From contig JAVTLE010000003.1 of NCBI GenBank assembly GCA_033439295.1, positions 2,418,001 through 2,482,000 of the forward strand: a DNA stretch of 64,000 bases, written 5' to 3'. Source of the DNA: Deuterostichococcus epilithicus. Lineage: Eukaryota > Chlorophyta > Trebouxiophyceae > Prasiolales > Stichococcaceae. A program made the position numbers and the translations under genes. Positions 38,012 to 63,347 of the stretch are shown piece by piece; position 1 is the stretch's first letter; every line of letters begins with the position of its first letter. Below the pieces are notes generated by a model. It saw nothing but the letters and a program-made list of their open reading frames with translations, searched no databases and was not told where the DNA came from.

Positions 38012-41000
38012 ATGGCGCCTGCATCGGCGGACGGCCGCACAGCCCAGAAGCCGCCCAGGCAGCGGCCGTCGGCCAAGGAGGCGAAAGACAGGGGCAGGCC
38101 CAAACCGAAGCGGCGGCCGCCGCCGGTGGGACACCGCCAGGCGCTGCCCGACCAGCTGGAAGACCCCAACGAGTACGGCGTCCGGGTGCGTCAAAATTGC
38201 GTGCCGGCAGCAATGAGCTACGTGCCTGGAATATGGCATGACATGCACAGATAAGCATCGGCAATCGGCGCATGCGTACTGTTGCAGCGCATAACATGTT
38301 TACTCGCTGCACTTTTGCACTCGTCCAGTCGTTTTCTGCCTTGCTGGATGGCCGGCTACCCTGACCGCTGTCCTGTCAGCCTCCAGTGGGGCGGATTGCC
38401 GTCCTCATCCCATTCCACACCCGCGCTCATGCTGGCAGACCACCGGCGCTGACGGTGTGCTGCGGTCGCCGCGCAGACGTACGGCCGCAAGAAACGCGCC
38501 CGCCCTGACGAAGTTGAGGACGGCGACGAGGCGCTGCCGGAGGCCGTGTCGGCGCGCATCATGAAGGAGGCGCGCATGCAGCAGGAGGAGGTTGAGGCAG
38601 AAGGGGACCCGCTGCGTCAGGCGGGCGCTGCCGCCGGCGGCCGGTGAGCAGAACGGTTTCTTCACCTGTTACCGCAGCACCCATTCGCCGTGTCTCCGAA
38701 GGAATTGTACATGCAACAGGAGGTATCAGGTATCAGCAGAAGGGGACCCGCTGCGGCATGCAGGCGCTGCCGTCTGGGGCGCTTGGCACACCAGATTGGC
38801 GCCCTTGACGATCTGCATCTGCGCCCAGGCAGGATTCGTGTCCTCTCTTGAGACAGTTGTCAAACGCAAACAGCCACTTGCGCCTGCCACCCGTGTCAGG
38901 CCGCTTGGGGCCGCCGCAACCCGCGACAGCGACTCAGACGAGGACGGGTCGGACGGCGGCTACGGCTCCGACGGCGGCGCGAGCGTTGGCGCCTGGGACG
39001 ACGGCGAGGTGGAGGTGTCGCCGGAGGACGAGCGCGCCATGGCCGCTTTCATGGTGAGGTTTGCTGAGGAGCCCCCGCGTTGCTCGGGCTCCTTCCTGGT
39101 GGCAGCTGGTGCTCAGCTGGGCGTGTGCTCGAGCGACAGTTGCTGTCTTTTCAAGTCAAGATGCACTTCATTGGACCACAGCAAAGCGAGAAGAAAGCAC
39201 AAGGAAACACTGAGGAAGGCCGCCTGGGTGCTGCCAGAATATGCAAGTTCCCGGGACCCTGAAACATTTTTGGCTGCCTCCCCCAGGCAAGCATCATGGC
39301 CGCTTCTCACCTGCTCTATGTTTCGGACGGTCGCCTGGGCAGTCTGATACGATGTGCCGCCTGAAGCGCTGCCGCCTGCCCTGCAGGCGCCGGGGGCGGC
39401 GGGTCAGGCGCAGCGCTCGCTCGCGGACATCATCATGGACAAAATACGGGCCCAACAGGAGGCGTCAGGGCAGCCGCCACCCTCGGAGTGAGGCTTTCTC
39501 TCCTGCCCCTGACCTCCCCTCCTTGCACCGCGTCCCAGTGATGCACGTTGACGAACTGCCAGCGGCGCAGCTATCCAGTTGATGTGCAGCAGGGCTGCGG
39601 AGAGCCGCTGAAGCCAGGGCACCACAACCTCCTTGTCCAAAGGGGTGCACTGGGATGGCCGGACTTGCACCCTATGGGCATGATGCATGCCGGCGGCAGT
39701 CTATGTGTACGGTGAGGCGGGCTACTTGCCACCCGCGGGCGCCGAATGGCAGACTGCCAGACGAAAGACGGGTCGGGGAGGCGGCGCGTGTGATGCGCAG
39801 TGCGCGCTGCGGTCCCACTTGCAGCGCGCATGCGCCCCCCGGCCCCACATGATGGTCGAAATCAGTAGTCTCGACCAAGGGGTCCCAGCCCTTGAGTTAG
39901 ACGACGCTGGCTCCTGCAGCTGTCACCTCGGCGGCCGTGCCAGGCCGGCTTTGAGGACTGCTTCTGTGGCTCCAGCGCGGATACCTTGCCAGACGAACAT
40001 CCGAAGCTCCAGGGAGCCTCATCCCCAGCCCTGGTGGCGATGCAACCGCGCAGGATGGGCGACCCGTCGCAGCTGGTGCCTGGGGGGCTGGACCCCAAGG
40101 TCGTGGCGGTGTACCATGGCGTCGGGACGCTGCTCAGCCGCTATACGACTGGCAAGATCCCCAAGGCCTTCAAGGTGAGGCGCTGCTTCGCGTCCCATTT
40201 GGAGCCAGTGAGGCAGCTGCCAGGACCCACTACTGAATTCCCCCTTTCATGCACAGACGCAGCAGGACTTGTTTTGAGACTGTGCCTGCACAGACGCACT
40301 TGGCCGACCTCGCAGCGGTCATCGAAGTCTTGCATTTGACCTGAAATCTAAAACCTTAAACCTGCCGCAGATCATTCCGGGGCTGCGCAACTGGGAGGAG
40401 GTGCTGTTCCTGACGGACGTGCCCAACTGGACGCCGCACGCCGTGTTTCAGGCCACCCGGCTGTTCGTCTCCAGCCTCAATGCCCGCCTGGTGAGAGCCG
40501 CCCCCCGCAAATCTACCCTGCGTCGAGGTTGATGGGTGCTGAGGTCGAGCAGGTCCATCTTTTTGAGTGGCAGCCAGGGCACTCAGGGCTGGCACTTGGC
40601 ATTTGCCCACCCAGCTTGACGAGCTGCGGCGCTTCTTCGACATTTCATGCCCCTTCACCCCCTCGAACTCCCTCTAATATCCGTCTCGGCTCCCAGGCAG
40701 CGCCGCTCATGTAGTCGCTGTGTGCCCACCCGCAGGCGCAGCGCTTTGTGGCAATCGTGCTGTTGCCGCACGTGCGGCGCGATATCCGCGACAACAAGCG
40801 CCTCCACTTTGCGCTGTTCCAGTCCCTGAAGAAGGCCTGCTACAAGCCTGACGCCTTTTACAAGGTGCGTTTGGGGCTTTTTTCCGCTGCACCTGCAATG
40901 GCCGAGGGCGCTTGGTGGCAGCACCTGGTGCGTGGCGCATGCACCTGCTTATTGCTGCGAGTGCCTCTGGCCTGATGCGGGCGCATCGTCAAGCGCTGCG

Positions 41001-42414
41001 CTGCAGGCAGCTGTCCACGGCTGTCGGAGGTGCCCAAACCTGCGGCTGCATCCAGGGCTATCACAAACCCTGCCTAAGCGACTGACAGAGTTCTACGAGC
41101 ATGTTCGTCGTTGTAGGAGCCGCGCCTTGGGACATCGGTTTTACTTTGCCATGCCTGCATCCAGGGCTTCCTGCTGCCACTGTGCGCCGCCGGCGATTGC
41201 TCCCTGCGCGAGGCCGTCATCGTGTCCGCGGTGTTGCGCCGCGTCAGCCTGCCAGTGCTGCACTCTGCAGCGGCGCTGCTGCGCATTGCCGACATGGAGT
41301 ATTCTGGCACCAACAGCTTCTTCATCCAGGTCCTGCTCAACAAGAAGTATGCGCTGCCCTACCGCGTGGTGCGACTTTCTCGAAACTCTAAACCCTGACA
41401 TAAGTTAACTGTGTTGTAAGGGCCCCTTCCCTGACCTTCGCCTCTGCTGCAGCATGCTGCTGCCACATCTGCCTTGGTCCTTTTCTCGGTGATTCTTACC
41501 GCCCTTTCAACCTTCTGAAATGCTTTAGTTGCATTGCCGGTCTCATGGTATGGTGTTCCTGCATGTGCTGGTGCCTGCGCTGCTTGCGCACTAGCGGGGA
41601 CACCCAGGGGACGGGAGGCTAATGTGTTTTTTTGCCACTCGAAGGGATTGCAAAGCTGCTTCGAAGCTGTTGCAGCCGTTTCTGCTGGACAACTTCTCGT
41701 GTCTGTCGCTGTGACACTGGATCGTCCCTGCGCACAGGTGGACGCGCTGGTGGATCACTTCGTGCGCTTTGCGGACGACCCGCGCCAGATGCCGGTGGTG
41801 TGGCATCAGGCTCTGCTGGCCTTCCTGCAGCGCTACAAGCACGAGATTCGGGCAGAGGACCGGGCGCCGCTCAAGGAGCTCATGCGCAAGCAGTACCATC
41901 ACCAGGTGGGCGCTGTTGTGTTGTATTGCCGTGTAGGGGCGCTCTCGCTCATTTGTGATATATCAGTCTAGGCGATCAGACGGCAGCGATGCAGATCAGG
42001 CCACATAATTGCCGCAGTTATCTGCATCATGCTGAAGCACACTGCCGACGAGCCCTGCTCCAGTGGAGAGTGTTCAGACAGGTACAGGTTGTGAGGGAAG
42101 GGCACACTATCATCTTGTTGCTGCTCAGGCAGCCAAAACGCTGCAGCCATACCCATGTGGTTGGAGCTCCTACTTGGCCGAGGCTTTGCCAGGCTGCGTT
42201 CGGCATCTCTGTTTCACATCCGCATGGGAAGGGTGCTTCGTTCGACCTGCAGGTGACGCCCGAGTCGCACAGGGAACTGGACGCAGCGCGCGAGCGTGGT
42301 GCCAAGCCGCCGGCAGGCGATGGCCCGCAGCCTGCCACGGCGGCAGCGGCGGGCGCCGGCAAAGGGGAGGACCCTCGCAACCTGGCGCCGGTGGTCCTCA
42401 TGGAGCAGGACTAA
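38012..42414 (+). CDS. BYSL: Bystin (Enp1), 40S ribosomal subunit biogenesis factor
   Basis: Nucleolar and cytoplasmic factor needed for 20S pre-rRNA processing and 40S export. Exons: 38012-38185, 38477-38620 (end uncertain), 38829-39053, 39387-39487, 40054-40174, 40371-40490, 40736-40864, 41165-41368, 41738-41905 and 42253-42414 (TAA), about 515 residues. The N-terminus is basic with an acidic middle segment ([12 protein letters not shown]), then the bystin block: [45 protein letters not shown] (two exons' worth of core), [64 protein letters not shown] and LPVLWHQ-like [16 protein letters not shown]. Exon 2 must extend past QQEEVEAE, a segment conserved in other bystins, which favours a GC donor at 38620. 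A decayed copy of exon 2 follows in the intron. The start ATG lies in GCCATGGCG. Confidence 0.95.
38709..38774 (+). repeat. Decayed copy of bystin exon 2 end
   Basis: CATGCAACAGGAGG, then AGCAGAAGGGGACCCGCTGCG and CAGGCGCTGCCG repeat the end of exon 2 (38575-38640) about 135 bases downstream, inside intron 2. A GTATCAG duplication breaks the frame, so it is non-coding. Confidence 0.82.
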
Positions 42415-44418: not shown

Positions 44419-47400
44419 GTGCGGCACAGCGCGCCCTCGAGGTTCGGCCCGGCCGCAGCTGTTGCGGCCCTCGTGACAGGCGCCCTGCTGTTTTTGACCA
44501 TGGCCACCGATCCTGTCGCCGGCGCCGCGTCCGCCCTGAGGCCGGCGGACCGTGTCGCCCTCAACCGCATCCGCAACGCCCAAGACAAGGCGCAGCTGAC
44601 GCAGCTGCTGTCCGGCGCCGGCGCGTCCGACCCTGAGGTGACACCCATGCGTCTCGACGGGCACACGTCTTCAGAACAGTGTTGCATACCTGTTACGCAG
44701 CATTGGTGGCCACAGATGCGACAACATGCACATGCTGCCGACAGGCTCTGGGACTTTAAAGCTTGGTGTTTTCTGACACACGAGCTGTTTCCCGCATTGC
44801 AGGTCCTGCGTGTCCTGCACAAGTGTGCTTCCAAGACCGGTAGCGGGCGCTGCACTTCTCTGCGCAACTACATCAACAAGTGCACACATGTAGGCCGCTC
44901 ATTCCTGGGCCTTCGGGCTGAGCTGAGCACACCACCAGAAACTCGACATGTGCTTCCATGCTGGCTCTTCTCGATCCCGCACTGGCCATGACTCCCTCTA
45001 TGGCAGGTTGGGGCAGACCGCTGACAGGCACACTGCGCCCATGGGGGTTCATGCTCGCTGGTGCCCATACTGCCATGCCCAATGCCAGCCTGACGTCTGG
45101 ATCCTGTTTACACAGGCAAGGGGAAGTCGCTGCCTTCGCTGTGCCACCACCCGCGCCCGCAGCAGGTCGACCACCCGCTGCACCGCCGTCCGCGACCCAG
45201 CGCGCTTCACGATCAGGAACGGCGCTGCAGGTATGGCTTGGGTTGGTAGGGGGTTTCCAGGCTAGGAAAGGCTCCCACGACAGTCGAGGCGGTGTGGGGG
45301 TGCTGGCACAGCAGCAGTGGAGCCAATCGTCTGCGTAAGACCTGCGATCATCATGCCTGTGTAGCACAGCAGGGTGTGGGTGCTGCCGCGACGAGGTGCA
45401 GCCTCATGTGCAGGAATGGCGCTGCAAGGGCTGCAGGGCTGCCAACTGCAGCAGCACCACCTCAACACGCCTTGCACTGTACTGCACATTCCCTCGGGCT
45501 CTGTGCTGTCAAAACCTACTGGTATGCGCCGCTCTGACACAGAGCTACTCCATTGTTCGTGCAGTGCCGAAGCCGGGCTACCAACCGGGACGGGGCGGCG
45601 CCTTGCCCTGCCCCGCCGGCCGCTACAAGCGCGGCGCCGGCGCCTTCAAGTGCTCGCTGTGCGCCGCCGGGCGGTACCAGCCGCGGACGGGGCAGACGGC
45701 GTGTCTCACCTGTGCCGCCGGCCGGACCGTTAATGCCGCCCGCACCACCTGTAGTGCGTCCCAGCCGTCCCTTGCCTCTCTCACCAGGCCGCCTTCGAGC
45801 TGCACAGCAGGCTGGAAGTGACGCTCGGAGCACCGGCTGCGTTCTCCTAAAGTTCAGTTTATGGTCCAGCCATGCGCCTCGGCGCCGTGGCATCTTGAAG
45901 ACTCTGGTCACCTAACTCTCCAACTGTCTAGGGTTCAACTAGTTAGAGCAGTTCAGCTGCAGCGCACCCAGCACATCGTGCCTGCATGGCCGGTTGCCTG
46001 TCTCTAATTGTTATCTTTGCACTGCTGAATGCCTCTGACTCAACTGGCTGCTCTGCTTGCAGCTGCAACGAAGAAGCCGCCGCCGCCAAGAAAGACACCC
46101 ACACGCTCGCCAACAAAGGCCCCCACTGCCGCCCCCACCTTCGCGCCCACTGCGGGCCCCACACCTGTGGTCGTCAACTTCACCAGCGTCCCCGACAATA
46201 CCGTTCCGCCAGTCGGCACCGGCGGCATCGCCTCCCTGACGTTCAGCAACTTCGTGGCAGAGTCGCCGACGGGCGACTTTGCAAATTCCAGCGTCGACGG
46301 CGGCAAGGTGGGGTGGAGTATTTACTCGGTGCAGCGCCCATACTGGCGTCTTCTCATGCACAAGCAAGTCATTAAAGGCGCTAGTGTCACATGAAGTCCT
46401 GTCTGGTTGCCCTTTGCTTAGATCCGAATGCCGATATCCATTGAGCTTGCGATGCAGCCGAAAACACATGCGCTGAGCTCAAGGGCAGGGCACTGCTCGT
46501 CGCGCAGGTGCTTGTCAACACAGCCGGCACGCCCGCGATGCTGACCCGCGCCGACGACGGCCTCTTCCGACTGGCCAGCTTCTACATCTCCAACCCGACA
46601 TCGCCCATCGGCGTGCGCGTCACGCTGAGCTGCTCGCCGCCGCTGTACCCTGACCAGGTGGGTCTGTTATAAGGAATCAGAACCCCTTACACACACAAAG
46701 GGTCGCTGAAGGTAACATTTATGTGGTGCACACCGATCTGTGGGATGCACTTGCGCAACAGCGGCCGCTTGGCGACTCGAATGACACCGTGATCAACAAG
46801 GACCCTGACGCACATGATGCTGCATGCTGAGGACTGACCTGGCTACATGCTGCATTTTGAGTGGGAGCCTTGTGTCTGTAGCTCTCTGCCTGCTGTGCCT
46901 CTGCCGCTGCCCATGCATGAGCGCCAGAGGACTTGCAACTCATGTGCCATCCTGACAAGCGGACGACCCCTGTGCGCAGGTCATAGACCTGGCGGAGGGT
47001 CAGGGCCCTACATATGTCAACACGCTGTTCAACGGCGTCACCTCCGTTACCTTCACGCCATCAGTGCCGCCGGTGCCTGGCGGCCGCGCCAGGTTCTCAA
47101 CGGAAGCACTGCAGTTCGTCATATCCAAGCTGTTCCTCGCGTCCGGGGCCGGCCCCTCCACGCCGCCCGTCGCCGCCCCAACGGCGTTGCCCACCGCGGC
47201 GCCCACCGTAGCACCAACCGCCGGCCCAAGTGCCACGCCGACCGGTGCCCCTGCCGCTTCGCCCACGGCGGCACCCAGCACCACACCGACTGCTTCGCCG
47301 ACTGCCGCCCCCTCGACCACACCCACTGACGCGCCCACCGCTTCACCCACGGTGTTGCCGACAGCGGAGCCAACAGCTCCACAAGCGCCGACCGCGGCGC

Positions 47401-50400
47401 CCACGGAAGCCCCAACGAATGCGCCATCGGCCGCGCCCACAGAAGCGCCGACATTGTCACCGTCGGCGCCGCGGCCGCCCTCGTGTGCCACTGGGCTGCT
47501 TCTCAATGCCGCTCGGCAGTGCGTGGACCCCAGGTGCGAAGTTCGACCTGCACACTTGTGCCGGATCGGGATGACCTTTGCTTGGTGACACATGCGTCGC
47601 TGTGAACGAGCCAACTATGTTCAAGAAGACAGCTCTGGCAAGAGTCGAGCGTGTTGTTGACTTCATATTCATAGTTCTCAGAGAAGTGCCCTTGCAGTGC
47701 TGTTTCCTCCATGCTGAGTATGTGCTTGATGATCTCGCCATGTCGTGTTTACCCTTGCAACAACATGCAGCTCACGTCTACATGTGTCTGTCTTGCTCCA
47801 GAAACACTGGTGCTGTGTCACCCTTCCCCACCACTGGAGCTTGCAGCGGAAGCCTGCTCCTCAACAACCTGGAGCTGTGCGCAGATCCAGGGTGCGTGCG
47901 CCTGCCTTGCCTGCCTTCCTTTACTTAGCCCTACGCATCAATCCGCGCGCAGCGCACTGCAGGCACTTGTGTGCGGCAGCCTGTCCAGAAGGAGCCGGCC
48001 TCGGGGCGCATATCACCTGCTGGCCATTTCGGGACGATGACAAGTGTGCAACTGTCTGAGGGGTCGCAAGGACTGTACCCATGGAGGCGCTCAGCAGTTC
48101 GTGTGCCACTCCTCGCACAGGCAGAGCGGCTCAGTCTCGCCGCTGCCGAACGGGCAGTGCAATGGGACTGCCGCCATCAACGTCGTCGGCCTGTGCTCTG
48201 AGCTGGGGCCGTCCAACGCCGTGCCGCCCAATCCCATCGCCGGCGCATGCCCCGGCACGTCACTGCTCAACACCGCGCTGCTGTGCGCCGTGCCCTTCAA
48301 CACAGGCGCCATCGCCGCCCGCCGCGACGGCACCTGCCCGCCCGCCACCATCGCCACGTTCGCGGGGCTGTGCCTGGACGCCGCCGCCATCGGCGCAACC
48401 TCCCCTGAAGCCAGCGGCGCCTGCGCCGCCGGGCTGCTGGGCGCCGCCGGCGTGTGCGTTATGCCGCCGGCGGACGCCCTGGGCACCTCTCCCGGCTACG
48501 GGCAGCTGTGCGCCGGCCTGCAGAACGCTTTCGGCCTGTGCGTCACCAGCACCGTTGCCGGCGCCTTGCCGCCTGCCAGCGGCCCTTCCTGCTCTGGCGG
48601 CAAGCTGCTCAACGCGCAGGCAGTCTGCGTCTCTCCCAGGTGCGGCTCCTGAGGGTTCCTCCAGCTGCTCCTCTGACTGGGTTCCGCTCAGTAAGGCAGG
48701 CTGCCCCAGGTCAAGCCAGGTGCCCACTGCTTGCGTACGCATGCATACATGTTCATTTTGCAACACTTAAACTGGACCTCTCAGGGCTGCACCAGTAATA
48801 CTCGCCTGAGCACAGTCCAGCCTGAGCACAGTCCAGCCACGGGATTTGTCTGGCTGCTGTTGGAAGGAGGTGAAGAGCTGATTGTTCTTGTATGTGATGC
48901 AGCTTCACTGACGGCATCTCGCCGCTATTGCTGAGCGGCCTCTGCACTGGCAGCGGCATCTTCAACTCACTCCGCCTCTGCAGAGACCCCGGGCGCGCAG
49001 CTGCCGTCCTGAATCTCGAGACTCTTTGCTCGTTTCGACGCACATGTCATGTTTCCATGCATGTTTGCATTCCAGGGGTGCATGGGTCGGAAGGAAAAGC
49101 CTTGAGATGCAGGAGTTCACCGCGTTCTCACCTTCTGTACGGTGTTCTCGTGATGCAGGCAGTCGGGCTCCGTGTCCCCCGACCAGTCCACCGGACTCTG
49201 CAGCGCCGGCCTGCTGCCCAATGCCGCCGGCCTTTGCAGCGCTGCTGGGTAACTTGTTTCAGCCTCCATTGCCTAATGAACCTTTGCTACCCCTCCGCAC
49301 TTTGATGCACACCGTGTGGCGGTGCACCTCAGTAGGAATACTTAGGGTTGTCTTTCAAGGGTTTCACAGTTCGCTTTGGAGCCATACTTGCAGGACCGGC
49401 TCGTATGGCTGACCCACGAGCGACCTGTGCCACACGAGAGCTCCGCTGACTGCTCGCTGCACTCGCAGCATTGTTGACAGAGCCCTCTGCTGCGCTGCCA
49501 CTGAGTCCCGCATGTCTGCCTCGCTGTGCAGGCCCACGAGCGCGATTTCACCCACAAATGGCGCCTGCACCGGCACGACCCTGCAGAACGTAGCGTTCCT
49601 CTGTGCCGAGCCCTCCGACACCGGCGCCGTTGCCGCTCAGAACGGCGCCTGCGCGCCGGGCCTCATCGCCACGCTCGCTGGCCTGTGCCTCGACGCCGTC
49701 GGCGTCGGAGGCTTCTCCCCCACTGATGGCATCTGCGCGGCTGCGGCACAGCTGAATCGCGATGGCGTGTGCGTCCTGCCGCCTCCGGCGGCTGTTGGCG
49801 CCTCGCCGGGCTATGCCGGCGGCTGCATGACTGGGCAGCTGAACGCTTTCAAGCTCTGCATCGTCAGCACCATCGCTGGCGCCGTGGCGCCGCTCCAAAA
49901 CACCGGAGCCTGTACTGGATCGAGACTCCTTGACGCTCAGGGCCTCTGCGTCGACCCAGAGTGCGATCTTCGCCCGCTTCTCGCAATAGTCCGTTTGCCT
50001 GAGTTCATGCTGCCATGCGCTGCTGTCGGTACGCCAGCAGCCATTGCATGAGCAATTTGTCGCAGGCCGGCGGTGGACCCAAGGGCCTGAACTTTGCATC
50101 AATTCAGTGAAGCTTGTGATAAATGGGAAGTGAGAACATATAGATGTTCGTTGTGCAAGTGCACGCGATCCTAGCGGACTGAAGCATCTGTTGGCGGCAT
50201 CGCAGGTACACTGGCGCGATTGCTGTTTTGGTGTTGACAGGGACATGCCCAGGCGATTTCCAGCTGAATGCCCTACGCCTCTGCACGGACCCCGGGTGTG
50301 TCCTAGTCTAGATGCAGCGGAACATCATGCAGTCGACCAGCCACACAGATTACCCAGGCCTAGTCGTTCATGCTCATAGCTAGCTGCAAGCGTGCTATTG

Positions 50401-53400
50401 CCAGCACCGCCGGACACATGCTGCGGCGGCACATTCTGCCGCATCGTCATATATCCGACAGGACTGCAAGCCCCCGTGCGTTTGTTCCCCGCAGTCAGAC
50501 GGAGGCCGTCTCCCCTGATCAAACTACAGGACTCTGTGACGGAGGCCGCCTCATCAACGCCGTGAAGCTCTGCGCCGATCCTGGGTGAGCTGCGGTCCGT
50601 TTCTCTGTAATTGTTTGGCCTCCTGGGGCATGTTTGTAGGGCGATAGATGTCTGGCAAGGAAGAGGCCGACGAGCTTGTGACACACTTTGTTGGCACTCT
50701 GCATCAACAGCCTTGCTACCGCCAAAGCGGCCGTGCTGCTGGGGACTCAGCTGATGGGTGCCAGAATCCGACGTCGTAATCCATGACCCCTTAGCCCGGC
50801 TTGCTTGTTTCACCAGCTTGTCCGAGCCAGTTGCATATTGCTGCTGCTGCGCCGCAGACCCACGAGCGCCACCTCGCCGAACTCGTCAACGGGCATGTGC
50901 CCCATCAACCTCCTGCGCAATTCGGCGGGCTTGTGCGTGTCTTCATTCCCTTGTCTTGTCTTGCGCTTTGGAGTCCCTGCTGCTGACTTCGGACCGTTGC
51001 TGTGTTTGCCTTGATGCATGAAGCGGCTGGCATGATGGCAATGTCCTTCCCTGAAGGGGCCAGAATAACGAGGTTGTGATAACACTCTGAATGGGACATG
51101 AAAGGTTATATAAATCACCGATGCCACGCCACCTCTCCTACAGGTGTGCCAGCTCGCGCGGTGTGGGTGCCATCCCCGCCAACACCGATGGCAGCTGTGC
51201 CGCATACCTCATTCACAACATTGCCGGCCTCTGCGTCTACACGACAGCGCCCGGCGCCGCGCCGCCTGCCGCTGATGGCACCTGCGCTGCTGGCAAACTC
51301 AACTACCAGGTTGCATTCCTCGCCTCTGCTGCACAAGGCCCCCTAGGGACCAGCGGCTGTCGTCAGTCATCCCTGTATGCTGCTGTGCCGCCGCCCATGA
51401 CGGTTGTGGACGTGCTCACGGCCGCAAGTTGCGTTTTCATGCAGTTCCTCGGTTGCTGATGGGAGAATGGGGGAGGTTGACTGATCGGATGTTGTGCTGC
51501 CCAGGGAGTTTGTGTCAACCCCCCGACCGGTGCAGACGGCACATCGCCGGGCTACGGTGGCTCCTGCGCCAGCGGTGAGCTGCTCAACGTTGCGGGCCTT
51601 TGTAAGGTCAGCACCATCAGCCACACCAGCCTGCCGACCAATGGAGGCTGCGCTGGAAGCCTGCTGCTCAACGCTGAGGGGCTGTGCGTTGATGGCGGGT
51701 GCGGAATGACCGAAACGTTTCCGTGCAGTATTCTGGGTTCAGACTACAGTCGGTTCGATGGTCATCTGATCAGATGTTATTGGTGGTGCCAACAGGAGCT
51801 GGCTCCGGTAACATTTGTTCAGCGGATCGTAGAGCACATCACCCTGTGCTGTCCTATGCATCCCCCTGTGCTGTCCTATGCATCCCGCATGTACTGTTCA
51901 TTCCTGCGGGTCAGGCACCCGCTACCAGCAGCTTCCTCAGAACAATGTAATCATCTTCGGAGCCCATGCACCGAGCTCTTGCCTTCATGGGCCTGGAATG
52001 ACGCCCTCGATGCTCCGTGCAGAAGCTACGGCGCCGTCTCCCCAACCAAGACCACCGGCCTGTGCCCAGACAACCTGCTTCTCAATGCCGATGGCCTCTG
52101 CTCGGACCCAAGGTGAGTCGCCGCCCTGAGAGGACTTTCTCCAGAACATCCGCCTTCTGCATTGAAATTGCATTCTCTAGAGCACCTTCACCCACCATTC
52201 ATCTGTTGGCGGCTTGGCAGACTTTCACGCGGCCGCTTGCCATTCCTGCAAGCGCTCACACTGGCCATCCACTCTTTCTTCCAGAGCCGTGCTCACTAGC
52301 CTATGTTCCACTGCTGCCCAGGCTCACAGACGGTGTCGCCGTCAACTCTGTGACGTACCAGTGTGACGGAGGCCTGCTCCCAAACGTGCTACGCCTGTGT
52401 GCGGATCCCAGGAACACCGGCGCAATTGCAGTAAATTCCACAGGCAAGCATGACTTGTGCCCCTGCCGCTGCACAGTGGATTTGTGTCCTTCAAATTCAC
52501 AGGACACGCAGTGGATGCAACATCTGCTGCCAAGCCCCCGGTGTCAGATGCGCTGAAGTGGCACCGCATGGTTCTGCATCTGGCTGCGATCCGCAATGCA
52601 GCACAGTGTTGGTGCTGCTCACAGAGCTGCTTGCGAGGCAGCATGTCCTTTTGGCCACCAGATACATCTGGCGTGGCATGGAGCTTCGAATGCGCTGTGT
52701 GCTGTGCAGATGGCGCATGCAGCTCGGGGTACACCGAGAACATCGCCGGCCTGTGCGTGCTGTCGCTGCTCACCGGCGCAACTGCGCCGTCCCCCACCGA
52801 CGGCACCTGCGCCGGCGGCACCATTTTCAATTTCGAGGGCGTGTGTGTGGCGCCACCGCCCGAGGCCAGCGGCATGGCGGTCGCATACGCGGGCGCCTGC
52901 ACCACCGGTCAGCTGCTCAATGCCTTCGGACTCTGCCTCGCCAGCAAGGTTGCTGCGGCCACGGCGCCGACGCGGGGCAGCTGCACAGGCAACGGCATCC
53001 TCAACGCCCAAGCACTCTGTGTGGAGCCGGGGTGAGGCGCCCTGCTGTGCTGTCGAGTCTTGCACTGCCAGAACGGGGAACACTCCTGCCATGCCCTTCA
53101 GCTGGAGCCAGACCATGCTGCGACAGAGCTGGCCGCTGCAGCCAGCAGTGCCTTGCCGCATGCTGTCGACATAGCGCCTGCGCCGATTTTCGCTGCTGTC
53201 AATTTTCCCAGCCACACTTCATGCGCAATAATTGACGTCAACCGATGCATTGTCTCGGAGTCGCCCACCTGATGAGCTGCCGTCGTTGCAGGAGCACCGA
53301 GGCTGTGTCACCAGCGTTGCTGACTGGCGTGTGCAGCGGGTCTCTGATCCTCAACGCCGCCCGGCTTTGCGCCGATCCCGGGTGAGCTGGCGGTAGTCTC

Positions 53401-56400
53401 TCTGCGCCTCTCAGCAATCCCAAGGGCGGCCCTGCAGCGCCCATGCACCTGACAAGTTTCCGATGCATCATGCCTGCCCACAGTTTTCGAAGTGGTTGAC
53501 ATTAGCAGGCCTCCTCACCCTCTGCATCCTGACTGCGACTTGAGCAGACCGCAGAGCTCCACCCTCGACACTGAACCGGGTCAGAAGGCCTGCATATTTC
53601 GAGGCTTGCCGAAACTTGCCTCGCCAAGACAGCCTCGCAAGGTCCGACTGAGGGCCTTCAGCCCCACTAGCTCTCAAAAGAACGTGGCATGGGCTGACGT
53701 TCGACCCTTGAACCTCTGCCGTGCAGGCCGTCCAATGCCGTCGCCACCGATCCAGTTTCCGGCACCTGCTCTGGTGGGCTGCTCCTGAACCAGCAGCGGC
53801 TGTGCGCGAACGCGTACAGCACTGGCGCCGCGCCTGCCGCCGCCGACGGCACCTGCCCTCCGGGCCTCGTTTACAACTTCGCGCGGCTGTGCTTCAACGC
53901 CGTGCTCACAGGCGGCACCTCGCCCGCGCCTGATGGCACCTGCGCCACGGGCACGCTCTCCTACGAGGGAGTCTGCGTGTCGCCGCCGGCGGATGCCCAG
54001 GGCTCGTCGCCGGGCTACGGCCAGGTGTGCACAGGAAGCCCCGGCCGGCGCCTCCTGAACGGCGGCGGCACAACCCGCAACGGCTTTGGCGTCTGCGTCC
54101 ACAGCACCATCGAGGGTCTCGTCACCACCGCCTCGCCCCCGCTGCCGTTCTTGGGCACCTGTCCGTCGGGCTGGCTGCTGAACCAGCAGGCGCTGTGCGT
54201 CAGCCCCGGGTGAGATTCACCTGCTTTCTTGTTGCTCCTCCGAGCACCCACCTTCGAGAGTACCCTTCCCGCTGCCTTCCCATTCAGGGCTCTGCTCTCC
54301 TGTCGCATGTGCAACGGAGCATGATCACCACCCGCTGCACCTTGTTTGCAGCACATGCAGCACACCGAAACCTGCACAGCAGCTGAAGCATGTGATCGTC
54401 TGATGGCGACATCAGTGTTCGCATGTCTGTATCAGCTTTGATGCAACCCTGTCACACGCACACGCTCGCATTTTGAACCGCAGGTCGACCCTTTCGGCGT
54501 CTCCAGACCTGCTGACGGGTGCTTGTCCTGGACCGTCCATCCCCAACGCCCTGCGTCTCTGTGTACCAGCCTTGTGAGCGACCCTTCCGCCCCTTCTACA
54601 TCACCTGGTGATATCTTGTATCATTCAGCATTGGTCTGAGGCGGCTTTGGATGCTCAGGCCTGCACACTGACCGAGACCGTTTGAAATCTTGGAATAAGT
54701 CCAAAAATACAAATGTGGTTTGATGGTGCACTGCAGCTCCACTGGTGCGGTGTCCCCCAACAATCGCGGCGTCTGCCCGACGGGCCTTCTGCGCAATGCG
54801 TTCGCGCTCTGCGCCGACGACAAGGGTGTTGGCGGCTACGCGGCCGACATCGACGGGTCTTGTGCGAACGGCGGCGTCAAGAACATCGTGGGTCTGTGCA
54901 TCAACACCCTGGCAGCCGGCGGCGTCTCGCCGCCAGTCGTCTCGGGGCAATGCACATCGGGCACCCTCAACTTCCAGGTCATTGCTGAGGCCATCCGAGC
55001 GTGCCCTGTGCACCTCCCTAGCGGTTTGGGCTTTGACTCTGTTGCCAGCCGTTCAGCAATGCGTGCAGCCATTTGTCTGCTGCTTGATGTTCGGTCTTCC
55101 CCTAAAACCCTACTTACGCATTTCTGCAGGGCATTTGCGTGTTCCCACCGCCGCCCGCGCTTGGCGTGTCGCCAGGCTATGCAGGCACCTGCGATAGCAC
55201 CATGCTCCTGACCGTTTGGGGTCTTTGCACACCCACAAACGTCGCCGGGGCCTTCACGCCAGCCGCCGGCGGCTGCACGGGCAGCGGCCTGCTCAACCTG
55301 GAGGGTCACTGTGTGAACCCAGGGTACGTGTTTCTCCCACAACAGGTGGTCGTGCCTGCACTTGTGCCTTGTAAGGCAGCAATACGACGGCTGATTAGGA
55401 GATGTTGCTCCTTCTCTGTGAGACACTAGCCTACCTGGGTAGCAGGTTGCGGCCTAGTGGCGTCCTGGAGTTTCTGCACCATCTAACCATCTAAGCTGCC
55501 ATGCGCCTTCCTGCCATCGGCGCCGTTGCTACCTCAGTCCGTCTTGTCGGCGGGCAACGCAGAGGCGTGCATTCGGATCGAGCCCTCTGACTTTGTTTCT
55601 GCCCAGGTCGACCGGCGCCGTGTCCCCAGGACTGCGAACCAGCCTCTGTGCGAACGGCCTGCTGTTCAACGCCCTCCACCTCTGTGCCGCGCCGCCGTTG
55701 TGAGCCCATTCCTCGGCCTTGCCTCCGCCAAAACCAACCTGCCACGATGCACAGCTGCCTGCTGAGCCTGTGCATCGACCCTCAACAACCTCCATACATG
55801 ACGCCACACTAGTGACTGAGCCCCGGTCCTGGCAGCGTCATAGCGGACAGAATCTCTTCCCAATTAGCGGCTTGGCGCATACATCCCTTGAGCTCCTGCC
55901 GGAAAGGACTGGGCATGTCAAACAGCATTCTCATGTGCAACGCAGGCCGTACACCGCACTTGAGCCGGACTTGACAACCAACCAGTGCACCGGTTCGCTG
56001 CTGCTGAACAATCGGCTGCTATGCGCGGATCCAGCCGCCACCGGCGCGACATCTCCCAGCCTGACCACGGGCGTTTGCCCGGCGGTCAGCACGACCGCCA
56101 ATGTCGTCGGACTGTGCGCCGACATAACTATCACTGGCGGCCAGACGCCAATCGGTGGTGTCTGCTCTGCGGGCTTCGCGCTCAACTGGGCAGGTATGGA
56201 GTCTAGGCAGCAGCTGAGCACTCCACCTTTTCGCATGGTCTGGGCAGCACGGAGTGGCAGGCGCCTCCGCAACGTCATGCAGGGTCGGGGTCTGGCGAAG
56301 AGGTCCTGCCAGGGCAGCATTCCGGAGCGAGCAGGTCGACAGAGAGCTTCGAAGGAAACCCTGAAATCGCAGGACAGGGGCACCTCAAGGACCATTCAAA

Positions 56401-59400
56401 CTCATTGGTTTTCGCTGTCCTGGGGCCATCGCAGGCATTTGCGTGCAGCCACCCCCAGCTGCCGTCGGCCGGCAGGCTGGCTACGGAACAGCCTGTGCGG
56501 GTGGGGAGCTGCTCAACCTCTGGGGCCTCTGCCTCAACGGCCAGGCCCCCGACGGCAGGGCGCTGACGGGCTTGGTCGGCGGCGCCTGCCCAGGACTCAC
56601 CCTCCTGAACGGCCAGGCTCTCTGCATCGATGCCGGGTGGGGTCCTGCCGCCCCTCTGCCTTGTCCCATGCTGCCTTGTTGCTGCAGGCTGCGATTTTGC
56701 AGCCTGGTCGAGATGGTCCGTTGCATTAGCAGACATTGCAGAGAGGCAGGAAGCTTGCAACCCTCGCATCAGCGGCCGCCGCTGTCGTTTCTGCAAGATC
56801 AGCCATGCACGATACAGCAAGTCGGTGCAGCGGGACGCTGAGAGACGCAGACATTGCAAATCATAAGCATCGAAGCTGCAATTAAGTGTGCATGTTGTGC
56901 TGCAACTCTGCGAACCTGGGCGGTTTGTAGGAACACCGGAGCTATAGTCCCAGATTTCCACAATGGCACCTGCGACCCGATGCGGCGTCTCAACACCGTC
57001 CTCCAGTGCAGTCTGCCCGGGTGAGCAAGTGCAGCTGCCCGGGCTGCGGCCGATGATGTTGTTCGAGTGAACGATTGGACTGACGGGCTGACTGCAGCGA
57101 GCTCCTTGCATCTTCTGTGTGCGCGCTGCACTGGCCTGTCTCGTCGTCCGGCTCCCCTGCGAGTTACGAACAGAACCCTGCGGCCCCGCCAAGTTGCGAC
57201 AGAAACCGTGTGCTCTCTGTGCAAGCTCGTATGAACGACTGGGACCTGCACATCTCAACCCCAAACCCTGGGCTCCTCCCGTGCACGCAGACCGTCTGGC
57301 GCGGTGGCAGCTGTGAATGGCGGCTGCGCGAGCGGCCTCAGTCGCAACACGGTCCTGTTGTGCGCCGACCCCAAGACCACAGCCTCCATCCCCACCGCAA
57401 TTGACGGCACCTGCCCAGCCGGCTACATCGCCAACTGGGCGGGCCTGTGCACAGTCGCCATCGCCATCGGCGGCATGTCCCCCGCTGGGGACGGTTCCTG
57501 CGCCGCAGGCGTGCTGAGCTTTTCCGGCCTGTGTGTGGCGCCGCCAGCCGCTGCAAACGGCACCTCCCCCGGCTTCGGCGGCACCTGCACCGCGCCGCTG
57601 CTCATGTCCACATACGGCTTGTGCGTGGCGAGCTCTGTGCCCGCCGCCACGGCCGGAAACCCCAACACTTTCGCCTGCGACACCGGCCTCGTCAATGACC
57701 AGGGGCTTTGCGTGTTACCGGGGTGCGCCTTCAGCCGCATTGCTCTCCTTCTGCTTTTGCTGCGGCCGGCTGCATTGTGTGGGCTCGTGTGCTTCCGTCG
57801 CTGGAGCGGCGCACCAGATAGCCGCATTCGTAACACGACTTTGATGGGCCCTCATGGCGGCGCGATGATGACCGCGATGATTCGTTTTAGATACGTTCGT
57901 GTGCCTCGCTCTGAACAGCCAGCCTCGTTTGCAGGCTGACCGCCGGGGGCGCAGTGCTCATGCCCATTGGAGGCTGTCTAAACTACGGCCCGCCCACCAG
58001 CTTCCTCATGAACGCCCTCGGTCTATGCGCGCCTGTCGGGTGCGTCTGCTGCGCTTCTGCTTTCCACTGTGTGCAACACGAGTTGCTCGGCAGGCGTGTC
58101 CAGTGAATCCTGCGTAGTACATCATTCTTTTCCAGGAATGATTGACTTGCGGGCAAGCAGCATGTCCTGATGCGATGGACAGGAGCGGCACCACCCGCCC
58201 CCCCCGTTGTTGACGTTGGCTGCCGTTCCGGGCAGGCTACAGCAGCTACCAGCACTGAACAACCAGTTCTGTCAGAAGGCAATCGCAGGCGCTGATCAAG
58301 TTGACGACAATCTGCAGGCCGCTCCTTGCGACTGCGCCAGACCCCGTCACGCGGACCTGCGCGGGGCTCCTGCTACTAAATATCGCAGGTGCGGTACACA
58401 CCTGCACCTGACTGCTCTTGTGCGCCAAAGGATTGCTCTTGTGCGCCAAGGGACATCTGACAGCCACCAGCGTGGAACTTTGCTGCCAGACTTGATCACA
58501 TTGGCCGGAACTTGCGACATCCCCCCCTGGCGCCGCTGCATTGATGTGGCCCCCGCGACTCAGGTCCAGGGGCTTCAGAATGACGTGCGAATGCAGGTCT
58601 CTGCGCTGACGCTAGAGGCACGAACGCCGCGCCTGCCAACTCCGACGGCAACTGCACCACGCCCTTCGTCCACCAGATCGCTGGGCTGTGTGCCAACCCG
58701 CCTCCCACTGGCGCCAGAACTCCGCTCGGAGTCAACCTCTGTGACGCAGGATACACCTACAACTACCAGGTTTGAACTTCAATCCCTGGAATCAAAACTC
58801 ACCTTTGGTGTGCCAGAGTCGCCGCAATCTTAGAGACCATTCTCAGAGGCTGGTCATGGATGGTTTGGCCCGCCGGTTTGTAAATGCGAGCGACGGTGCT
58901 TACGCCTATGACACCGAGGGAGAGTGTTTGATCAAGGGAAGAAATATGTGGAGGATCCCTGGGTCTGCCTACAGTTCCGCTGCCGGCCATTCAATGACTG
59001 TCGTCCCTGGTGATGCAGGGCCTGTGTGTGCAACCGCCGGCACTCGCGGCCGGATCACCCGTTCCCTACGGCGGATCCTGCACCCCGCCTAGACGACGCC
59101 GACTTGCGGCCCCTACTGCGATCCTCAACGCTTTCGGAACCTGCGTCAACAGCTACGTGGCAGGCGCCACGCAGACGACCACGTTCAATTGCGCCGGCAC
59201 CAGCCTGCTCAACGTCCAAGCCTTGTGTGTGGACCCGGGGTGCGCCTTCCCCCTCTTTGTATTCATGTTCATCAAAATGTGCACTGGCCTGTTTGCCCTG
59301 AAAACCTCGACTGATGATGCAAGTATGTCAACCACACAGCCAGCTGCTGCGAGCTCAAGCAACCATGCATGACCCCACAGCAGCGGCTTGCTGCATTCGT

Positions 59401-62400
59401 CCTGCCCATCCTGCAGGTTCGCTGTTGATCGCCGACCACTGTCATCCCGCAGCGGCAACAGGCGCTGGACCGACATTTCAGGCGACTTGCTGTGCACTGT
59501 GCAGGTCGACTGGCGCCATCTCCCCAGCGCCAAAGACATCTACGTGCAACGCCCCGCGCTTGCAGAATTCCGCAGGCCTGTGCGCCGATCCTGGGTGAGA
59601 GATTTCAAATTTCCAAATTTCATTACCTTCGCCGCCCAGCCGCTGGCGTCCCTCGCCTGCTCTGTCACCGCTCCAGTCGATGTTTCTCAACCTCGACCAG
59701 GATCCCTGTGCCTGGAAATCAATGGAACTCTCTGCCTTTGCTGCACTGCTCATGCGCCATCCGCCGCCTGTTGGCACGGGCTCGACAACTGGGTCGAAAC
59801 TCCGCTGCAGCACGCACGCTCACTTGCTGGCTGCCGCAGGCGCTGCCGGTGGCTGCGCATCTCCTCATGTGCATGCTCTGCCATGACATGAGGGTCTTTC
59901 TGCAGGCAAACAGGCTCCCAACAGTATCCGTTGGCCGTCGGCTGCACCGGCGGCTACCTCATCAACCAGCAGCGTCTTTGCGCAAATCCGACGTGCGCAT
60001 TTGCTCAATCACCCGCGCCCCTGCCAGATGTTGCAGTGTGCCTGTGCATGCTGCTTTGATGGTGCTGCTACCATACATCTGTCGCTGCAGAAGCACAGGC
60101 TCTGAACTATGCAGCCGCAAATGCTCTCGAAACTCACTGCAGTCACTGAGAACCCAGCACACTGCGTCCAGTCACGCACTGAACCCGTCACCACTCAGCG
60201 GGCCGATGCTGCAGGCTCACCGGCGGCTTCGGCATCTCGCCTCTGGTCGGAGACAACTACAACTGCGTGGCGCCGCTGCTCGCCAATGCCGTGCAGTTGT
60301 GTGCCCCAGCGTTCAGCACCGGAGCCGTCGCGACCCTGAGGACGGGCCTGTGCGACACCACTGTCAATGCCTACGTCATCAATGTTGCAGGGTGAGGCAG
60401 AAACCAATGCTGCTGTTCCGAGGCAGGGACCACGGGAATCAGCGAAACTGATGTGGCGCTGCAATGCAGCAGTTGCTCCGCCTGGAGGCGTTCAAGCTGG
60501 GCCTTTCGAGGGACGACTTGTTCCTTGAAGAGGGCGCCAGTGTGGGCAGGATTGCTTGCAGGCACCTGAGCTGCGATGCTGCGCGCAGGCTCTGCATCCG
60601 GCATTACCCAATCACGGGCGTCAGACCCGCCGCCGGCGGAACCTGCTCCCAGGGCATACTGAACTACGAGGTGAGGCGCCCCTCGTCATGCACAGTATCC
60701 CCCTGCTGGGGCCTGCCATTGGCTTGGGGCACGGCTCGCACACCTACTCCCAGCAGACAGCCGAGCGTGGCTGCCCTGCGAAACATCTGGCGCCACCACC
60801 AGCGGCGGAACCCGCCGTGCAGCTCGCTGCCCCGCCTTCGGCAGCCGCTGCCGGCCACCGGTCGCCGCTGTCCGGTGCTCGGACGGCCTGCCATCGGCAG
60901 TCGGTAGTCTTGTCGGCGCTGCCGCCCGCTGAACCCGCAGCGCTGCTTCCTGACGCAGGGCCTGTGTGTCTCGCCGCCTACGCTCGCGCTGGGTGTGTCT
61001 CCGGGGTACGGCCAGGCATGCGCCTCCGGCCGCGTCCTCAACCTCTGGGGCACCTGCATACGAAACATTGTGCCGGGCGCCACCGCGGTCACCTTCCCGC
61101 TGGCCCCCACGGGACCGTGCCCCGTGGGCGTCAGCCGCATGAATGCGCAGGCTTTGTGCCTCAGTCCCACAGGGTGCGCGCCGCCGTCGCCGCTGTTGTT
61201 GCTGTTGCTGCTGCTGCTGCCGCCGCTGCTGCTGCTGCCGCTGCCGCTGCTGCCGCTGCTGCTGCTGCTGCCGCTGCTGCTGCTGCTGCTGCTGCCTCTG
61301 ACAGCGGCTTGGACTGCGCCTACTCCCGATGCCGGTTCGCTGCGTGTGACCGCAGCTTGCGGCGGGGTGGTACCATCAGTGGCACACTATAAAGGCCTTG
61401 CTCGTCGCTGGAGCGACTCACAGAGCCTCTATTGATTTCTGCAGGCCATACACTGTCGCCGTTTCGCCCAACTACAGCACCAGCAGCTGCGCCGGTCCCA
61501 CTTACGCTGGAACACTGCTCAACATTCAACTACTCTGCGCGCCCGCAGGGTGAGATGCGCCCTCAGACAGAGCAAGGATCACAGTCCCTCTGGGATCTGT
61601 CTCGGCACGCTTGCTGGCCTGATCTTTGTGCAGTGACCGGCATCCTACCTCGCATGAGGCATTACATGACTTGCCGTTGGCGCCACAGCATGCACGCACC
61701 AATGTCGGCAGCGTCGATCGCCGCCATCAAAACCCTTCAGCAGCTACAAGGTGAAGCAGCAGCTGAGCACCTTTGCCTGTTTCCCACTTGCAGCGCTACC
61801 GACGTCGTTTCACCGCTGATCACCGGGTCAACCGTCGCCTGCGATGTTAACGGCATCATCAACCTGTTCGGACTATGCGCGCCAAATGGCCTCACATATG
61901 GCGCGCTGCAGCCCAGCACCGTCGACGGCAGCTGCGTCGCGGCGACGTCCCTCAACTACCAGGGTGCGTGCGCTGCAGGGGATCTTTGACTGTGTGCGTG
62001 TTCAGAAAAGGGCCACAGGCCAGTCCTTGGGCAGCAGAGACATTGCCTGCCGGCGGCCGCAGCACAGATGCCGCCACCCAAAACTTCAGAACAAGGCTAT
62101 CATGTCGTCACTGTTTCTCAACCGTCACCGCTTGCATAAAAATTTGGCCATCGGCAGCGGCTGCAGTCGCCAGCTGTGGCGCGTCTGAGGAGTTCACCCA
62201 AGCGCCTCACAAGGCTGACGCGGCCGCGATTGCTGTGCTGTGTTTTTTGCTTGAAGCTCTTCACAAACTCTCTGGCTCGAACGCAGGCGTGTGCGTCAGC
62301 ACGGCCCTTGGCGCGCTGCCCGGGTACGGCGCCAACTGCACGGCGCCGTTGCTGCTCAATTTCTGGGGCGCCTGCCGTCCCACCTTTGCCGGCGGCGTCT

Positions 62401-63347
62401 CGCCCCTGGTCGTCGGCGGCAGCTGCAGATCCGGCCTCACACTCAACACGGAGGTGGGAACACGGTCCCCAGGTCGCCAGTTGCAGCCTTGCCCCTACTG
62501 CCCTTGAAGGCGACACACTCTTGACAGCCCTGGGGGCTGAGGAGCACCGCCTTGGCACGGCTGCAGCCACACGGATCACCGCCGTCCTTCGCCATCCTGG
62601 TGGCACGACACTGGTGCCTCGAACCCTGCCGCCACGACCGCCGCCTGTCCCCGCAGGGCCTGTGCATCGCATCCGACTACAACTATGCCGCACCGCCCAG
62701 CTACATCACCGGCACCTGCTCCGCCGGATTTGCCGTTTACAACGTCCAGGGGGCCTGCGTCACCTCCAGAAGCAGCATCGTGTACCCGCCGAGCGGCATC
62801 GGCGGCACGTGCACCGCCGGCACCGCCGTCTTCAACATCCAGGTGTGCGTCGTGCGCCCAGCCCAGGACCGCCAGCCCAGGGTCTAGAGTCCGCAGCCCA
62901 GGGGTTGAAGTCTGCAGCGCCATGCAGCCGCCCACGTGCAACCGGGTCGCCCGCTTCCTGCCCGGCTTCGGGCGCGGCCTGCGCTTTGTGATGTGAGAAG
63001 GTTCACTTCACGCCTGCAGTCGCTGCACTATGGGGCCGACCCCGCTAAACCCCTGCGCTAAACCCCTGCGCTAAACCCCTGCCGGACCAGGGAGCGTTCC
63101 TGCTGTGCTTCTTTCTGCTCCAGGGTTGAGCTCTGTTGCCGCTGCCACGCTCCAGGGCGCTTGCGTGAACTTCGCGGGCGCGGTGTCGCCAGACCCGGTG
63201 TCCGACACCTGCCTCCGGGCTGGCGATGTGCTGACCACCTACGGCGTCTGCGCCCCTGCCCCGAACGACGCCGTCGACGCCGACTACCTCGGCACCTGCC
63301 CCAGCGGGGCGACCACCAACACCCCCTTCTGCATCAGCACGCCTTAG
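44419..63347 (+). CDS. Giant modular secreted protein with ~70 two-Cys repeats (ECM type)
   Basis: About 45 exons and 2,700 residues; no orthologue recognised. Early exons: 44419-44637, 44803-44889, 45116-45230, 45565-45753, 46063-46307, 46508-46657 and 46980-47533. Repeat exons run from 47802-47891 to 63156-63347 (TAG). The first exon starts at an acceptor (CACAG/GTG), so the ATG exon is missing from the model; an ATG in ACCATGG within this exon is an alternative start. The hydrophobic stretch AAAVAALVTGALLFL may be a signal peptide. A Cys-rich segment, a GCC2/GCC3-like module, an ECM-type beta domain, a (A/S)PT linker and the repeat array follow. Almost all junctions were checked for phase and length. 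The exception is around 58389-58616. Even Cys content, the PT linker and absence of enzyme motifs suggest a disulfide-rich cell wall or matrix protein, which is inference. TGTAA at 63851 could be its poly(A) signal. Confidence 0.85.
45565..45753 (+). other. GCC2/GCC3-like Cys-rich module exon
   Basis: One phase 1-1 exon encoding PGYQPGRG...C.AGRYKRG....CSLCAAGRYQPRTG..ACLTCAAGRTV, the C-x2-C, G-x-Y/F spaced pattern of the GCC2/GCC3 (ephrin-receptor-like) module known from many secreted protist and algal proteins. It precedes the beta domain. Confidence 0.8.
46063..47480 (+). other. Beta-sandwich-like domain and Pro/Thr linker of the giant protein
   Basis: Exons 46063-46307, 46508-46657 and the first part of 46980-47533. 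A basic Pro linker (KKPPPPRKTPTRSPTKAPT) leads to SLTFSNFVAESPTGDF, LFRLASFYISNPTSPIGVRV and LFNGVTSVTFTPSVPP. This is the same order of motifs (LTF.N/D.., ..F.L.S.Y...., S.TFTP) as each repeat of the ECM protein at 3006-7466. Then comes about 90 residues of APTAAPT/ATPTGAPAASPT repeats. Confidence 0.65.
48805..48836. repeat. 16-base tandem repeat, two copies
   Basis: CCTGAGCACAGTCCAG twice in an intron of the giant gene. Confidence 0.9.
51842..51885. repeat. 21-base tandem repeat, two copies
   Basis: CCTGTGCTGTCCTATGCATC-type unit twice, in the intron after 51698 of the giant gene. Confidence 0.9.
58413..58449. repeat. 21-base direct repeat, two copies
   Basis: TGCTCTTGTGCGCCAA occurs twice with period 21 in the poorly resolved stretch of the giant gene. 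Confidence 0.9.
61190..61306. repeat. CTG/CCG microsatellite
   Basis: About 110 bases of CTG with CCG and TTG variants, within the intron after 61173. It reads poly-Leu in one frame but lies beyond a phase-2 donor that matches every other module. Confidence 0.9.
63044..63082. repeat. 13-base tandem repeat containing CTAAACCC
   Basis: GCTAAACCCCTGC three times in the last intron of the giant gene. The CTAAACCC core resembles the plant-type telomere unit, but the unit is 13 bases. Confidence 0.85.

Follow-up and report, generated by a model that had tools for sequence, protein, structure and literature searches.

The Balbiani ring secretory proteins, like other giant cysteine-repeat secreted proteins, are very large, hierarchically repeated and provided with regularly placed Cys, and the insect antifreeze proteins are Cys-stapled solenoids with two Cys in each repeat of 12–13 residues. 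In Volvox, hydroxyproline-rich glycoproteins (HRGPs) and pherophorins are components of the matrix (PMC10762512); a search of that article for the words “cysteine” and “disulfide” gave zero occurrences. The gene analyzed here lies in a stretch of 64,000 nucleotides (the window), corresponding to positions 2418001–2482000 of contig 3 of the genome of the green alga Deuterostichococcus epilithicus (46.8 Mb, 21 contigs), and encodes an array of 74 units of ~30 residues, each having exactly two Cys. We consider it rather probable that its product is secreted and has a structural role in the cell wall or extracellular matrix, with a string of units, each closed by a disulfide, in the place of a proline-rich tail.

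By description, this array resembles the Balbiani ring proteins in size, hierarchy and regularity of the Cys, being here split by 37 introns, and the insect antifreeze proteins in having two Cys per repeat, although the repeats of the latter are much shorter than its 30-residue units. With the green-algal hydroxyproline-rich matrix glycoproteins (such as pherophorins) the likeness resides in the front end of the protein, related to that of a gene on contig 12 having a long sequence rich in Pro-Thr (PT) and Pro-Pro-Pro (PPP), whereas the array itself is Cys-paired and contains 8.8% Pro. As to the Ephrin_rec_like (GCC2_GCC3, PF07699) family, which is matched within the same protein, its small Cys loops with a C-x2-G motif are reminiscent of the units; the latter, however, have two Cys in ~30 residues and no Pfam match, and the likeness is at the edge of detection.

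The two-cysteine unit and the hierarchy of the array

The units were sought with a profile seeded from 25 hand-picked examples and then remade with 57 stretches taken from the window. At a threshold of at least 7 bits 68 stretches, all on the + strand, are found within 47463–62854, and two more, at a chance level (7.1 and 7.3 bits), in the rest of the window; the spliced model extends the units beyond the profile stretches, to 63344. At 15 bits or more the array region yields 58 matches, while the same threshold is reached neither in positions 1–44000 of the window nor in any dinucleotide shuffle (20/20 without a match, best 10.4 bits), and the 19 kb beyond the window contain no unit, the best score being 5.7 bits; the scores themselves do not constitute an independent test, because the profile was made from the same region. 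Alignment to a cyclic profile gave 79 pieces, of which three spurious ones (at 48997, 49063 and 56635) were dropped and three others (54001–54117) merged, thus leaving the 74 units.

All 148 Cys of the array are accounted for by these units, two in each, with none extra. The residues separating the paired Cys number 11 in 54 of the 74 units, 10 in nine, 12 in five, 9 in one and 14–21 in the remaining five, so that the spacing is near-constant (10–12 residues in 68/74) but not constant. A preliminary description of this DNA, made from the letters alone, had recorded about 73 copies and ~2,700 residues at 47470..63347, figures that prove accurate for the array, and had credited each unit with two Cys at constant spacing; the number of Cys was right, the constancy overstated. 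The units are diverse (mean normalised pair similarity 0.244) and the array is weakly charged, with 63 Lys plus Arg and 92 Asp plus Glu in 2,213 residues; the proline-rich linkers of the protein sit upstream of it.

The spliced model, built by spliced alignment to the cyclic unit profile and extended upstream, with the introns at 48993 and 56637 corrected by hand, comprises 44 exons between 44419 and 63344 (8,127 nt) and encodes 2,709 residues with zero internal stops before a TAG codon. The array represents the C-terminal 2,213 of these residues, in keeping with the earlier statement that the repeat makes up most of a giant protein, but the gene begins upstream of the span first reported, at or before 44419. 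One intron (48993–49158), placed between two 90-nt unit exons, uses a GC donor and is probably of the GC–AG type; in the model preceding the manual corrections 29 of the 37 acceptors read GCAG, that G having carried zero weight in the splice model. In the same uncorrected model, identity at codon positions 1, 2 and 3 among five cassettes (ten pairs) is 0.63, 0.70 and 0.48, respectively, which, as far as sequence can tell, is the pattern of protein constraint, and the GC content of third codon positions is 0.784 compared to 0.585 GC in the introns. The gene is real and well kept.

A higher order is superimposed on the single unit. The array consists of ~11 cassettes, mostly of six or seven units apiece, and the similarity between units peaks at lags of 6 (0.306), 12 (0.315) and 18 (0.310), with 0.297 at lag 7, the ceiling obtained by 2,000 permutations of the unit order, taking for each the best of lags 1–14, being 0.292. 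Furthermore, eleven units of the “GYG/GFG/YAG” type recur every 5–7 units. Of the 37 array introns, 27 are in phase 2, six in phase 0 and four in phase 1; in a reading of the exon table, 25 of the 27 in phase 2 coincide with unit borders, and 11 of the remaining 12 introns come shortly ahead of the second Cys. The array has ten exons of exactly 90 nt, and 14 of 80–106 nt with phase-2 introns on both sides. Its growth would have involved tandem duplication both of 90-nt phase-2 exons and of blocks containing about six units, in an order that we infer; these duplications look old, because the introns hardly resemble each other, sharing almost nothing between cassettes (two short pairs at an expectation value, E, below 0.01 in the uncorrected model). 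A long stretch of low complexity, one frame of which reads Leu/Pro, lies in the intron 61174–61444.

Family identity, front end and related genes

The unit is unnamed in the libraries searched and is known from one gene of one genome. These libraries were scanned with a selection of the exons, taken singly. In Pfam, no repeat stretch gave better than E 0.03 and none exceeded a cut-off (three overlapping sets: five repeat open reading frames, 13 stretches and eight stretches), and PF07699 was not matched by the stretches of these same sets at E up to 1; NCBIfam returned zero families for 13 repeat stretches at E up to 0.1, and a cassette profile hit zero PDB sequences up to E 1. Within the libraries searched, the view that the unit corresponds to no named domain is thereby supported, the Pfam check suggested with it having revealed no strong match to a known repeat. 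The weak Pfam matches (CBM_14, CC domain, Turandot, DUF6719, GULLO2-like and TraT), each by one stretch out of 13 at E 0.03–0.64 and below the cut-off where bits are shown, were discarded. One cassette searched against a viral and a prokaryote sequence collection gave five and 62 pattern matches, respectively, zero of which were confirmed; other algae lie outside the reach of these scans. The literature searched yielded nothing on a repeat of this kind, and unpublished status is not claimed beyond that search; the passage retrieved from PMC6019070, which tabulates Hydra genes, has no bearing on it.

In its own genome, too, the unit occurs at a single locus, as far as can be judged from searches in which only the best candidates were scored. 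With a natural cassette as protein query 14 of 15 places fall inside the array, and with a consensus cassette 26 of 28. By profile, the outside place that the former found on contig 19 (E 0.13) does not qualify as a unit, the best score nearby being 6.6 bits, and the same verdict applies to those found with the latter on contigs 19 and 11 (E 0.005 and 0.02). Six 10-kb stretches around the related genes described below are likewise devoid of units (best 7.3 bits).

Upstream of the array the model contains the elements listed in Table 1. A single open frame (46956–47588) joins the end of an unnamed domain, the PT linker and the first unit, so that this front end is physically linked to the array. 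By reading, the unnamed domain looks beta-rich, and its joined exons have no Pfam match. At the other extremity, the last exon passes directly from a unit to the stop codon and, by reading, displays neither a hydrophobic tail nor a signalling domain.

Table 1. Features of the two-cysteine array gene, in window coordinates.
Feature	Position	Strand	Basis and remarks
Signal-peptide-like hydrophobic stretch and start of Cys-containing module (first modelled exons)	44419-44637, 44803-44889	+	spliced model; reading; likeness to contig-12 gene
Exon with Cys motif GSRCLRC...CTAVRDPARFTIRNG	45116..45230	+	spliced model; likeness to contig-12 gene
Ephrin_rec_like (PF07699, GCC2/GCC3-type) cysteine module	45565..45753	+	Pfam E 5.2e-10, 39.4 bits (cut-off 23.1)
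First part of unnamed domain, preceded by Lys-Pro and Pro-Thr linker	46063..46307	+	spliced model
Unnamed domain, middle exon	46508..46657	+	spliced model
End of unnamed domain, Pro-Thr linker (PF04886) and first two-Cys unit (one exon)	46980..47533	+	PT E 8.8e-13
Array of 74 two-Cys units	47463..63344	+	37 introns and, with the linker exon counted, 38 exons; ~11 cassettes
Example of single-unit exon, exactly 90 nt, phase-2 introns on either side	47802..47891	+	spliced model
Example of five-unit exon	49532..49960	+	spliced model
Stop codon TAG	63345..63347	+	spliced model; 19 kb past window without unit

The front end has relatives elsewhere in the genome, revealed by BLAST without composition correction, so that the E-values are optimistic. 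Four pieces of it, beginning with the signal-like exon and ending with the Cys module, are matched by the contig-12 gene (L057), with 38% identity over 60 residues in the first modelled exons, 52% over 27 and 50% over 34 residues in the exon having the GSRCLRC motif and 58% over 72 residues in the Ephrin_rec_like module, a fifth piece (E 0.05) being out of place. The gene on contig 5 (L053) has one clear match, in the Cys module (46% over 72 residues), and the unnamed domain is matched by both genes. The open frame of the contig-12 gene continues from this domain into PT/PPP-rich sequence in place of units, with 96 PT or PP pairs in 747 residues; the label “proline-rich” is given by reading and count, because a Pfam scan of these 747 residues gave no named family. 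More distantly related is a domain that alternates with proline-rich sequence in a gene of contig 9 (E 4e-4 in one search, not significant in another), ~8 kb from a second Ephrin_rec_like match. It is the PT/PPP-rich sequence that suggests a matrix location for these related genes.

On contig 9 (L055, 2172001–2182000), several near-identical tandem blocks ~964 bases apart each contain an “LMFDDL...GYGG” domain and a PPP-rich linker, with PPP-coding arrays inside the blocks (repeat finder, periods up to 500); the gene is long, proline-rich and looks recently expanded. Close to it are two Cys-rich ephrin-receptor-like stretches (L056, 6377–6847 and 4857–5435), the first matched by PF07699 and the second labelled by reading. 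The next gene upstream of the array gene, on the same strand, is that of bystin, having exons at 40736–41905 of the window (PF05291 matched by two of the three exon stretches tested). Light-harvesting chlorophyll a/b proteins have 39 partial matches in the genome, which mark the organism as photosynthetic; taken with the GC content and the proline-rich genes, they point to a green alga.

Possible nature of the unit chain and rival explanations

A structural function could be accomplished in the following way. The signal-like stretch, the ephrin-receptor-like Cys module, the Pro-Thr linkers and the unnamed domain would together bring the protein via the secretory pathway into the matrix. In each unit a disulfide between the two Cys of C-x(about 11)-C would close off a small loop or hairpin. 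Since each unit would be sealed by its own disulfide, the 74-unit chain would act as a long string of beads or a rod, weakly charged and resistant to proteases, occupying the position of the proline-rich tail of the contig-12 relative. The disulfide-staple solenoid or beads-on-string matrix fibre of the preliminary description is likewise a putative shape. An extracellular chain of this type is suggested by the pairing of the Cys with a kept gap, the low charge, the signal-like front end and the matrix-type sister genes.

Several findings weigh against this reading. Neither a start codon nor a cleavage site was found for the signal-like exon; by reading, its frame has no ATG between the upstream stop and the hydrophobic stretch and the start codon is therefore probably located in an earlier, unseen exon. 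As a consequence secretion, named in the heading of the preliminary description, is not proved, although the secretion-type features upstream of the array and the matrix-type paralogue speak in its favor. The gene model was selected by unit similarity, and the front end suggests the destination of the protein, not the role of the array. Furthermore, the array is not hydroxyproline-rich, having 40 SP, 25 PP and eight N-glycosylation sequons in 2,213 residues, and the pherophorin domain PF12499 has zero matches in the genome, but the control genomes likewise gave none. Finally, PF07699 is reported at only two places of the genome, on contig 3 (this gene) and on contig 9, and Pfam gives no match to the contig-5 module up to E 0.01, so that the paralogy rests on direct comparison.

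A different origin of the units, compatible with a structural role since it concerns their descent and fold, is that they are diverged Cys hairpins of the ephrin-receptor-like/TNFR-like module of the same protein, amplified from its last Cys pair, and therefore a known fold with a new sequence; we entertain this idea tentatively, as a serious if somewhat improbable possibility. Indeed, profile–profile comparison (hhalign) of the unit with nine local ephrin-like half-motifs gave a score of 10.88 (E 0.033), higher than all 30 of 30 Cys-preserving column shuffles of the trimmed unit alignment (maximum 8.55), but with a probability of only 1.5% over 13 columns. Likewise, the unit profile scores 9.3 bits on the module end of this gene and 10.5 bits on that of the contig-5 gene, values each reached by two of 1,000 shuffles, whereas the equivalent from contig 12 obtains 1.3 bits and the middle motif of this gene 1.8 bits, reached by 239 and 126 of 1,000 shuffles, respectively. 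Pfam does not recognize the units scanned as ephrin-like, and the unit lacks the further Cys that the module has three residues later. We regard a common origin of unit and module as no more than possible.

Other explanations concern the function or the very existence of the product. The Cys could form bonds between chains or between neighboring units, giving rise to a covalent network instead of intra-unit staples; which Cys pairs with which does not follow from their number and spacing alone, but the well-kept gap within the unit suggests a within-unit pair, and we regard the network as unlikely. Even less likely is that the protein is a cell-surface adhesin or recognition protein, directed at a partner, prey, virus or symbiont, the units being a stalk or binding sites rather than a structural fibre. 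The units are diverse enough to offer varied surfaces, and ephrin-receptor-like modules and PT linkers occur on surface receptors too; the C-terminus, however, ends on a unit without visible tail or signalling domain, and the contig-12 paralogue bears a wall-type proline-rich tail. That the array is a decaying pseudogene or an assembly artefact is hardly credible: one intron does need a GC donor and the Cys gap is aberrant (9 or 14–21 residues) in six of the 74 units, but 2,709 codons without a stop, two Cys in every unit, the codon-position constraint and the near-complete dissimilarity of introns between cassettes, indicative of an old and kept array, all argue to the contrary.

Compared to the structural interpretation that we prefer, a more far-reaching proposal can be formulated, namely that the array represents a new repeat family, in which a 30-residue single-disulfide unit, descended from the final Cys pair of the protein’s own N-terminal module, is joined end to end into a long extracellular rod of 74 units with little charge that substitutes by disulfides for the hydroxyproline-rich shaft within one algal matrix-protein family; taken as a whole, this proposal appears doubtful to us.

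The function proposed for the protein is an ordinary one for its setting, and the interest lies in the unit and in its apparent substitution for a proline-rich tail. The locus clearly exemplifies how a giant gene is put together from 90-nt phase-2 exons and blocks of several units and, if the interpretation is correct, the design of a single-disulfide repeat could naturally begin with this unit. If true, furthermore, one gene family of this alga would have two ways of building a long extracellular shaft, one proline-rich and the other made of disulfide units, on related front ends.

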